DNA from: Burkholderia stabilis
Lineage (GTDB): Bacteria > Pseudomonadota > Gammaproteobacteria > Burkholderiales > Burkholderiaceae
Assembly: GCF_001742165.1 (NCBI RefSeq)
Contig: NZ_CP016444.1
Span: 124,001 to 188,000, forward strand
Direction of reading: 5' to 3'
Length of the DNA stretch: 64,000 nucleotides
Positions 59,570-62,188 of this stretch are shown here, piece by piece (the stretch's first letter is position 1; every line of letters starts with the position of its first letter). The notes under the pieces are model-generated. The model was not told the origin of the DNA and did no database searches. It saw nothing but the letters and a program-made list of their open reading frames with translations. Made by a program: the position numbers and the translations under genes.

Positions 59570-60661
59570 TCACGCCTGCATGACCAGCGCCGTCAGTTGC
59601 GCCGCGCGCGCCACTTCCGTCTTCGCGTAGATCGCCTTGATCTGCGTGCGGACCGTGCCGATCGACACGCCGCGCAGCTCGGCGCACGCCTGCGGCGACA
59701 GCCCGTCGCAACACAGCAGCACCGCGAGATCGGCCTCGGCCAGCGACAGCCCGTAGAACACGCGCAACCGCTGCGCGCGGGCCGACGGCGAACGCAGGTC
59801 GGCGGCCGTCATCAGCGCCGCGACGCCGGGCCGCTCGCGCATCAGGCGCGACCGTTCGGGGACTGGCATCAACGCAAGCGGCAGCGATTCGCCCGTCGCG
59901 CGCCGCAGCAGCAGCCCGCCGCGAGCGAATGCGTGCCGCCATTGCGCATCGTCGACGCAGCCTTCCGGCGCGAAACGCCCGTTCACGATCCGTACCGCGG
60001 GTTCCGCCGCGATCAGTTGGTCGGCCGCGCGGTTCGTGTAGCGCAGTTCGCGCCGCTCGCCGAGCAGGAAAACCGGCACCGGGATCGCATCGAGCGCCGA
60101 TTCGGCGGCGGCCACGCGCGCTTCGAGCAGCCCGATGCGCGCGTGAATCCGCAGCGCCCGGCTGATGTGCGCGCCCATGATTTCGATTGTGTGACGCTGA
60201 TCGTCGGACAGCCCCTGCGATTCGGAGCTGCCCTGGACGCTGAGGAAGGCGCCGCTGCCCTCGCCGCGATGAATGTACAGGCCGGAAATGCTGCCGAGCC
60301 CGTAGGGGCGCATGAACTCCTGATAGAACAGGCCGTGCGTGCGCTGTTCCGGAGACAGGTGCTTGACGTCCTCGAACCAGCGGCCCGCCGGCCAGTTGCC
60401 GGCAACCGGCACGACCGGGTCGTACAGATAGAACTCGGTGTTGTATGCACGCTGGCACGCGGCGACCCATGATGGGTCGTCGCCCGCCGCCTGCTCGATC
60501 GCCGGCAGCTGCGCCGCCTCGTCGAACGACAGCAGCGTGGCCATGCGCACGCCCACCGACGATCGCAGCCCGTCCAGCACCGCTTCCCATCGTTGATCGC
60601 CCAGTGCTGCCGCGTAGATGTCATCGATCCATGCCGATGGAATCAAATCGTTCCGTTGCAT
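59570..60661 (-). CDS. LuxR family transcriptional regulator
   Basis: A 363-residue regulator: a long N-terminal sensory part (residues 1-290; a GAF/PAS-like stretch including LRIHARIGLLEARVAAAESA, then VPVFLLGERRELRYTNRAAD) and a C-terminal LuxR helix-turn-helix (about 300-360; LSLAEADLAVLLCCDGLSPQ, then GVSIGTVRTQIKAIYAKTEV). No receiver domain or autoinducer-binding domain is clear. It is transcribed toward the TRAP genes, 411 bp away. Its targets are unknown. Confidence 0.9.
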   Translation of the reverse strand: MQRNDLIPSAWIDDIYAAALGDQRWEAVLDGLRSSVGVRMATLLSFDEAAQLPAIEQAAGDDPSWVAACQRAYNTEFYLYDPVVPVAGNWPAGRWFEDVKHLSPEQRTHGLFYQEFMRPYGLGSISGLYIHRGEGSGAFLSVQGSSESQGLSDDQRHTIEIMGAHISRALRIHARIGLLEARVAAAESALDAIPVPVFLLGERRELRYTNRAADQLIAAEPAVRIVNGRFAPEGCVDDAQWRHAFARGGLLLRRATGESLPLALMPVPERSRLMRERPGVAALMTAADLRSPSARAQRLRVFYGLSLAEADLAVLLCCDGLSPQACAELRGVSIGTVRTQIKAIYAKTEVARAAQLTALVMQA

Positions 60662-60860
60662 CTGGCCACCCCGCGTCGTGCGTTTTTTTCGAACGCCTTT
60701 CGCGCATCTTACTCACTCGGTGCCCGCGTTCAAATTGTCAACGCGCGTTTGATCCGAAATACCACGCTTCCCGCCGTTTCTCGTCAGACGTAATGGCGAT
60801 GCGTCACACGGCGGTGCATGCGGCGTGGCCGGCTTTGCATCCCGACCGCGCTATGTCATG

Positions 60861-60950
60861 ATGCAACGCATGACGATCCGACCCACCACCAACGCACTGC
60901 ATCATCATCACGGCCGCCCTCCGTTGCGCCGTGGTTCGTTTCGCATCTAG
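60861..60950 (+). CDS. Histidine leader peptide (hisL-like) of an attenuator
   Basis: A 29-codon frame (ATG 60861; in-frame ATGs also at 60858 and 60870) ending in TAG at 60948. It contains four His codons in a row (CAT CAT CAT CAC, 60900-60911), as in the hisL peptides of enteric bacteria. Behind it follow ATCGGGA/TCCCGAT (60958-60964 and 60972-60978) and a strong Rho-independent terminator, then hisC. The whole fits ribosome-mediated attenuation by charged His-tRNA. No ribosome site stands out. Confidence 0.7.
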   Translation: MQRMTIRPTTNALHHHHGRPPLRRGSFRI

Positions 60951-60991
60951 CCATTGAATCGGGATCGACTCTCCCGATCAAGACAACGACC

Positions 60992-61016
60992 AAGGCGCCT
61001 CCGGCGCCTTTTTTGT
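60992..61016 (+). terminator. Attenuator terminator before hisC
   Basis: AAGGCGCC-TCC-GGCGCCTT is a perfect 8-bp stem with a 3-base loop, followed by TTTTGTTTTT. It lies 60 bp upstream of hisC and inside its leader. A terminator inside a 5' leader is best explained as a conditional one. The upstream dyad at 60958-60978 can form the alternative stem. Confidence 0.8.
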
Positions 61017-61075
61017 TTTTTGCCGCCGTAAAAACCTGCTGCACGGATCAATCGATAACGTACGGAGTGTTTTCA

Positions 61076-62188
61076 ATGCAACAACCCTGGAAAGAAGTGT
61101 CCTTGCCGGATTTGCCGCTCAGGGAGGATCTGCGGTTGCAGCACGCGTACGGCGCGCCGCAACTCGATGTGCCGGTCTGCCTGAACGTCAACGAGAATCC
61201 CTATCCGCCGTCGCCGGCACTTGTCGAGCGCATCGCGGCGGCGGTGGCCGACGCGGCGCGAGCGGCGAACCGCTATCCCGACCGCGACTTTGCCGAACTG
61301 CGCACGCATCTGGCGGCCTATCTGACGCACGATACCGGCGTGACGGTCGACGCATCGCGTGTCTGGGCCGGCAACGGCTCGAATGAAGTGATTCAGCAGG
61401 TTCTGCAGGCATTCGGCGGCCCGGGGCGATCGGCGCTGGCCTTTACGCCCGCGTATCCGATGTATGACGAATACTGCCGCACGACCTTCACGCGCCTGCA
61501 TACGTTGCCGCGCACCGAGGATTTCGCGCTCGATCTGAATCAGGCGATCGACAGCATCCGCGCGCATCGGCCGAGCGTGATCCTGCTGACGTCGCCGAAC
61601 AACCCGACCGGGACCGCGCTTCCTGTAGACGATATCCGTGCCATCCTCGACATCGCGCCGGGCGTCGTCGTCGTGGACGAAGCCTATGCGGAGTTTCGGC
61701 GCAAAGGGGTCCGCAGCGCGGTAACGCTGCTGCCCGACCATCCTCGGCTGATCGTCTCGCGCACGTTGAGCAAGGCGTTCAAATTTGCCGGAGGGCGCGT
61801 CGGATATTGCGCGTGCGCGCCGGCAATCGTGGACGCGCTGAAGCTGGTCCGCCTGCCTTATCACCTGTCGGCTTTTACCCAGGCCGCGGCCTGCGCGGCG
61901 CTGGTCGCGCGTGACGAAATGCTGTCGCAGGTCGAAGCGATCAAGACCGAGCGCGATGCCACCGTCGACTGGCTGCGCAGCCTGGGGCTCGCGGTGGCCG
62001 ATTCCGACGCCAACTTCGTGATGTTCGGCAAGTTTGCGGATCGCCACCGGATATGGAGCGGACTCCTGCGCCACGGGGTCCTGATTCGCGAGTCGGGGCC
62101 GCCGGAATACCTGCGCGTGTCGATCGGTACTGCAGCGGAGATGGCCGCGTTTCGTGCGGCATTGCTGGCCGTGATGGCGTCGGCGTGA
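61076..62188 (+). CDS. hisC: Histidinol-phosphate aminotransferase (stand-alone copy)
   Basis: A 370-residue fold-type I aminotransferase of the HisC group. Motifs: LNVNENPYPPSP at the N-terminus, WAGNGSNEVIQQVLQAF, LTSPNNPTGTALP, VVVDEAYAEF and the PLP Lys in SRTLSKAFKFAGGRVGY. HisC converts imidazole-acetol phosphate to histidinol phosphate with glutamate; paralogs may also act on aromatic amino acids. ATG 61076 follows ACGGAG. It is outside any his operon, but the leader with four His codons and a terminator strongly supports a histidine role. Confidence 0.92.
   Translation: MQQPWKEVSLPDLPLREDLRLQHAYGAPQLDVPVCLNVNENPYPPSPALVERIAAAVADAARAANRYPDRDFAELRTHLAAYLTHDTGVTVDASRVWAGNGSNEVIQQVLQAFGGPGRSALAFTPAYPMYDEYCRTTFTRLHTLPRTEDFALDLNQAIDSIRAHRPSVILLTSPNNPTGTALPVDDIRAILDIAPGVVVVDEAYAEFRRKGVRSAVTLLPDHPRLIVSRTLSKAFKFAGGRVGYCACAPAIVDALKLVRLPYHLSAFTQAAACAALVARDEMLSQVEAIKTERDATVDWLRSLGLAVADSDANFVMFGKFADRHRIWSGLLRHGVLIRESGPPEYLRVSIGTAAEMAAFRAALLAVMASA

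Follow-up and report, generated by a model that had tools for sequence, protein, structure and literature searches.

A single hisC gene in Burkholderia stabilis is preceded by a histidine-rich leader that very probably acts as a ribosome-mediated attenuator, sensing charged His-tRNA and controlling a stand-alone, probably acquired gene. The parts of this leader, their conservation, and the sharing of bases between its two folds are read directly from the window, by which we mean the whole 64,000-nucleotide stretch of NZ_CP016444.1 analyzed here (Table 1). The attenuator is a variant of known attenuation in a distinct leader family; in this betaproteobacterium it would control one hisC, probably an acquired gene, and the family recurs as a module before several genes. 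An earlier note on this DNA had described a frame with four His codons, a dyad, and a terminator directly before hisC; all were located as described and recur in orthologs, and its interpretation, attenuation through His codons at a stand-alone hisC, is still the best reading, the leader being kept in 27 of 27 full-length orthologs. The short open reading frame (ORF) is also real, but its likely start moves to position 60870, as the ATGs near 60860 would fall within the likely promoter. The antiterminator, the actinobacterial gene type, the leader family, and the other target genes are additions to that account.

Table 1. Leader features and hisC in the Burkholderia stabilis window (NZ_CP016444.1; window coordinates)
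Feature	Position	Strand	Detail
Likely promoter	60834-60862	+	-35-like TTTGCA 60834-60839, 17 nt, extended -10 TGT-CATGAT 60854-60862
Leader peptide ORF	60870-60950	+	ATG 60870, TAG 60948-60950, 26 codons, MTIRPTTNALHHHHGRPPLRRGSFRI
His run, putative sensing codons	60900-60911	+	CAT CAT CAT CAC
Antiterminator 5' arm	60926-60940	+	GCGCC GT GGT T CGTT, within leader ORF
Central hairpin (dyad)	60958-60978	+	ATCGGGA 60958-60964 / TCCCGAT 60972-60978, enclosed by antiterminator
Antiterminator 3' arm	60985-60998	+	AACG ACC AA GGCGC; GGCGC is also first terminator arm
Rho-independent terminator	60992-61019	+	Stem AAGGCGCC 60992-60999 / GGCGCCTT 61003-61010, T-rich tail
Likely hisC ribosome site	61064-61067	+	GGAG, by eye
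hisC, actinobacterial type	61076-62188	+	370 aa, NCBIfam matches

The hisC gene and its leader

The gene downstream belongs to the histidine pathway, its product, a predicted histidinol-phosphate aminotransferase, scoring above the NCBIfam cut-offs of both NF002877/PRK03317 (578.9 bits, cut-off 409) and TIGR01141 (291.2 bits, cut-off 276.55). Orthologs were gathered from the genus, where 22 matches in 65 genomes included one truncated copy and thus gave 21 full-length genes, and from the family, where a search of 349 genomes gave 24 matches, 17 of them within the genus and two truncated, and added six. The leader was present at all 27 full-length orthologs found, with the His run, the arms, and the terminator kept in every one, down to 71% protein identity. 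Loss of the His codons or the terminator in close relatives, which the earlier note had named as evidence against attenuation, was seen in none of them; the two truncated copies (L029 and L227, in G033 and G160) begin near residue 96-100 and are without a leader. It is this recurrence that places the leader above chance. The single terminator-like site in 60400-61300 is the leader terminator, and shuffled sequences average 0.9 such sites, so the pattern by itself is not beyond chance. The stretch 60870-61020 folds at -46.9 kcal/mol (z -2.95), a value equaled by 0 of 200 shuffles. The upstream neighbor (59570-60661, minus strand) is divergent, leaving the leader terminator no other upstream transcript to end; it has no NCBIfam match, and by eye its C-terminus resembles a LuxR-type helix-turn-helix.

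This hisC was probably acquired horizontally. The best 80 of at least 590 relatives comprised 5 Burkholderiaceae and 75 sequences assigned by title to Actinomycetota, the latter at 56-64% identity, and a 51-row tree placed its 11 Burkholderiaceae rows in one group (100/100) beside actinomycete rows, with three rows from the window's own genome on very long branches. That genome holds seven weaker hisC matches (26-37%), one of which (L003, 33%) passes TIGR01141 and sits between genes read by eye as hisD and hisB; the hisC of the window is hence an extra single gene. It is not depleted in histidine (9 of 370 residues).

Transcription of the leader is expected to start at or next to 60870. In 57 of 58 leaders the ATG stands 6-7 nt past the end of an extended -10-like motif, TGn-NANNNT, compared with 1.2% of shuffled upstream stretches. 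The comparison allowed one start per leader in the shuffles and all in-frame ATGs in the real test, and the 58 leaders, being kin, are not 58 independent cases. At the remaining leader (L210) the script chose another start, and the motif is present by eye. With the ATG only 6-7 nt past the motif, the leader peptide is probably leaderless, its RNA beginning at the AUG. A consensus sigma-70 scan of 60400-61300 found no promoter; the -35-like TTTGCA was assigned by eye.

Attenuation and its alternatives

The RNA arms 60926-60940 and 60985-60998 can form 12 pairs around the dyad. This antiterminator and the terminator are mutually exclusive since GGCGC belongs to both, the shared bases being 60994-60998, which bears out the exclusivity that the earlier note had proposed to examine by folding. 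From the start of the 5' arm it is 14 nt back to the His run and 22 nt on to the stop codon, and with an assumed ribosome footprint of 13 nt this placement fits an attenuator: a stall would free the arm and a ribosome at the stop would cover it. We propose that a ribosome would translate the leader during its synthesis. When His-tRNA is scarce it would stall at 60900-60911, leaving 60926-60940 free to pair with 60985-60998 around the central hairpin, so that terminator bases would be taken up and hisC transcribed. When His-tRNA is plentiful, a ribosome reaching the stop at 60948 would cover 60926-60940, the terminator would form, and transcription would end in the T tail after 61010. In a leader that is not translated, the 5' arm would pair with the ORF start and the terminator would again form. 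Stalling, folding order, read-through, and the response to histidine are thus predictions from sequence, as is the leaderless start.

Folding was examined in 24 leaders, out of 28 found by pattern among 29 loci, using only the RNA past the assumed 13-nt ribosome edge. As long as the second terminator arm was not yet made, every one of the 24 formed the antiterminator, whether the ribosome stood at codon one or codon four of the His run. Once complete, all 24 leaders gave the terminator when the ribosome stood at the stop, where the assumed footprint hides the arm and the antiterminator is absent by construction, and all 24 likewise gave it with no ribosome. At equilibrium, complete leaders with the ribosome at the first codon favored the antiterminator (22 of 24, terminator 2), and with the ribosome at the fourth codon they favored the terminator (15 of 24, antiterminator 6, neither 3), so the mechanism would rely on the order of RNA synthesis. 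Of 500 shuffles of the window's leader stretch, 147 gave an upstream partner to five or all six of the GGCGCC bases, three of them at equal or lower energy.

A covariance model (R1) matched 28 of 65 genus genomes, 30 of 299 family genomes, and 7 of 399 order genomes, six of the last beyond the family. All 57 loci chosen from leader and protein matches scored E ≤0.01, and 56 of 57 leaders carried a terminator of the form GGCGCC-loop-GGCGCC-T. Four or five consecutive His codons were found in 24 of the 27 hisC leaders (L222 as read from the alignment), the other three having three His in a block of four (L049 HHHY, L038 HHRH, L178 HRHH), and the codons alternate synonymously between CAT and CAC. 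Weaker runs occur in some leaders (L191 HRH, L185 HH, L211 HHLH), and most leaders outside the family have a peptide end unlike the LRRGS type and yet a fold that scores. R1 matched the window's own genome once, and the best other DNA match covered 29 bases (E 0.021); no member of the leader family was thus found before the other hisC. One R1 match (L176, G031 contig 12, E 0.008) was set aside, as it lies at the end of a gene read by eye as porin-like and is without a His run.

Covariation, which the earlier note had suggested looking for, is seen in one alignment and only partly in another. In the model-fitted alignment of 56 distinct leaders, made of R1 matches and therefore leaning towards the model, 8 of 15 pairs changed on both sides and the covariation score was 0.167, against 0.093 for shuffles and at most 0.059 for slid versions; pair 41-163 fails in 26 of the 56 rows, where a bulge shifts. 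In an unfitted alignment of 24 leaders, however, double changes were confined to the central hairpin, with none in the antiterminator stem, and the structure scored 0.097 while one slid version scored 0.104. The outer pairs GCGCC/GGCGC are near-invariant, as they should be when GGCGC has two partners to match, and are by themselves uninformative.

Other readings of these parts fare less well than an attenuator sensing charged His-tRNA. That the ORF is a free-standing gene for a small protein or sRNA, with the hisC promoter within 61020-61075, is improbable: the terminator is strong, the untranslated leader folds into it, and a leader peptide may act in trans, as is described for peTrpL in the available text of PMC7298713, yet the unit is found with hisC, with a HisRS-like gene, and in two cases with a GNAT-like gene, its conserved upstream arm also pairs with a terminator arm, and no sigma-70-like site was found in 60400-61300. 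The alternative pairing would fit any terminator switch, including a T-box or another ligand- or tRNA-binding riboswitch beside which the ORF would be incidental. Against such a switch, which we regard as very unlikely, the His codons are kept through synonymous changes, and no Rfam family, His_leader and T-box included, reached its gathering threshold anywhere in the window. Six matches with E up to 10 were listed in 60800-61080, none of them to His_leader, T-box, or a riboswitch; the best, isrK over the dyad and terminator (E 0.015, 20.8 bits, threshold 50), was taken as chance.

An attenuator that arrived with its cassette and no longer regulates hisC would suit an extra copy in a genome that has another beside hisD- and hisB-like genes, but a relic would hardly have kept every part, from the His run to the arms and the terminator, at all 27 full-length orthologs down to 71% identity, and we give this reading very little credence. 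Attenuation through charged His-tRNA has a familiar counterpart in the enteric hisL leader, which combines a leader ORF with a His run, a terminator, an alternative antiterminator, and a histidine pathway gene downstream. The same elements are present here, as in the Rfam His_leader family. Unlike enteric hisL, the leader described here serves a single hisC, is probably leaderless, and has no Rfam match, and its antiterminator 5' arm lies in the ORF past the His run and encloses a separate hairpin. His attenuation is known in gammaproteobacteria and some Firmicutes, as summarized in the accessible part of PMC9413887. In bacilli, His leaders have been predicted before hisZ and hisS* (PMC2965389, available text) and, like the present family, are shared by HisRS-related genes; they belong to another phylum, whereas the Burkholderiales family also serves hisC and its HisRS-like gene carries a frameshift site. 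The same text reports no similarity between Firmicutes and proteobacterial leaders. Among titles and the beginnings of abstracts in the open-licence literature, no description was found of His attenuation at a lone Burkholderia hisC, nor of a hungry-codon frameshift in a HisRS-like gene.

Sister targets of the leader

The 57 leader loci lie before hisC (26), a HisRS-like gene (28), a GNAT-like gene (2, by eye), and nothing recognizable (1). A protein search found the HisRS-like gene in 20 of 398 family genomes, with the leader at 20 of 20, in L205 without its terminator. Its product passes the PF13393 cut-off and matches TIGR00442 (hisS) at E 1e-28 with 100.5 bits, below the cut-off of 286.75; two HisRS structures align over two stretches of it and not between them. 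Databases name it either 'ATP phosphoribosyltransferase regulatory subunit' or 'histidyl-tRNA synthetase'. Taken together, a portable His-starvation cassette of the Burkholderiales, standing before hisC and the HisRS-like gene, the latter with a frameshift as its second His sensor, is a likely interpretation.

Both GNAT-like acetyltransferase genes behind the leader (L181:1501-1623 and L185:1501-1622) come from two genomes of one genus, L185 having two His codons. The leader copy with no recognizable gene behind it (L175:1501-1623) is in G008, which also has hisC and HisRS-like copies. On a Pseudomonas silesiensis plasmid (L233:900-1100), the region before an in-frame HisRS-like gene shows by eye a short ORF that includes HHHQSH, together with a terminator-like hairpin; R1 gave no match to this upstream region.

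A candidate +1 frameshift at a His codon

Outside the window, the sister HisRS-like genes offer a more novel lead than the attenuator itself, a candidate programmed +1 frameshift at a hungry His codon that we consider probable from comparison of the loci. In 27 of 28 loci (L190-L204, L206-L215, L052, and L057) the gene is split by a conserved prfB-like +1 site about 90 nt past its start codon, made up of an SD-like hexamer, 3 nt, CTT, and a His codon. The gene opens in one frame (e.g., MTMIRGTRFIVGKEAAQIRALETQFRSYLH, then a stop) and goes on in the +1 frame. The site was found by script in 25 loci, where the hexamer was CGGAGC in 22, the codon before CTT was TAT (13), TAC (9), or, in the remainder, TGT, TGC, or TTT, and CTT was followed by CAT (22) or CAC (3) and then by a stop in all 25. 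Two further sites were read by eye: CGGAGT TAC CTT CAT CGA in L208 and AGGAGC TGG CTT CAT TGA in L214. Across the 27 loci, with the hexamers CGGAGC, CGGAGT, AGGAGC, and CAGAGC, the A-site codon was CAT or CAC in every case and a stop came directly next in 26. Among the Leu codons of the +1 parts, 13.5% are CTT.

For the 0-frame part pS/pN was 0.544/0.139 (29 codons, 25 loci) and for the +1 part 0.724/0.137 (23 loci); in both, pS exceeded pN in the part's own frame only, and pN exceeded pS in the wrong frames. Decay of the gene is countered by this pattern, and sequencing error is an unlikely cause with the same shift in 27 of 28 loci. Single loci have decayed: L205 lost the site region along with the terminator, and L206 is further disrupted downstream. 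In an in-frame relative (L233, 41%) the segment bounded by a conserved Gly and a conserved Pro has 29 residues, the corresponding pieces of the split gene measuring 18 and 11 by eye. The database entries viewed of the HisRS-like protein start in the +1 frame; Pseudomonas syringae relatives, seen as protein entries, have an N-terminus resembling what the shift site encodes in its +1 frame.

The +1 parts hold 2 His in 3,837 residues (24 loci). For the best 120 among 1,242 database relatives the figure is 49 in 23,910. In-frame relatives are also His-poor (9 of 1,915 residues, 11 loci), so the depletion is partly a family trait. An almost His-free +1 product would be made mainly when charged His-tRNA runs low.

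By analogy, the site may work like that of prfB, for which the available text of PMC12421855 gives the consensus as AGGGGG three nt before CTTT. Common to the sister genes and to prfB as portrayed in the accessible parts of PMC12421855 and PMC5009743 are a hexamer 3 nt upstream, CTT, a slow A-site codon, and a +1 product. The slow codon differs, being CAT or CAC in the sister genes in place of a stop, and charged His-tRNA would be what is sensed; with a His codon in the A site, the sister-gene site is not a member of the prfB kind. Starvation frameshifting could serve starvation-specific proteins, of which, in the words of the 2016 review (PMC5009743, available text), 'no examples are known'; a search of the open-licence literature for more recent cases also found none. 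In the accessible text of the survey PMC3711429, a 'tRNA synthetase' +1 cluster is marked PV. If true, the present case would show hungry-codon frameshifting put to functional use in nature, and the sister targets make it testable whether cells purposely make a protein by frameshifting at a starved codon.

Related sites occur in contigs of 40-578 kb labeled as viral by their collection (viral_contigs). Counting repeats (L229, L236, L245) once and including L239 by eye, 12 distinct loci (L228, L234, L235, L237-L244, and L249) carry such a site near locus position 1490, and at 11 others (L246-L248, L250-L257) the HisRS-like gene is in one frame, L258 being counted in neither group. The hexamer is AGGGGG, CGGGGG, AGGAGG, or CGGAGG in 10 of the 12 and weak in L234 (CGGGTG) and L244 (CGGAAC). 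Three nt past it stands CTT in 5, as in prfB, and GTT instead in 7. The A-site codon is His in 12 of 12 (CAT 7, CAC 5), and TGA comes next in 10. The site of L249 is placed nine codons earlier in the gene, a position that points to an independent origin. In L228 (1250-1420) the region before the viral HisRS-like gene holds, as noted by eye, a short ORF with two single His codons and, after it, two terminator-like hairpins, possibly an attenuator of another family.
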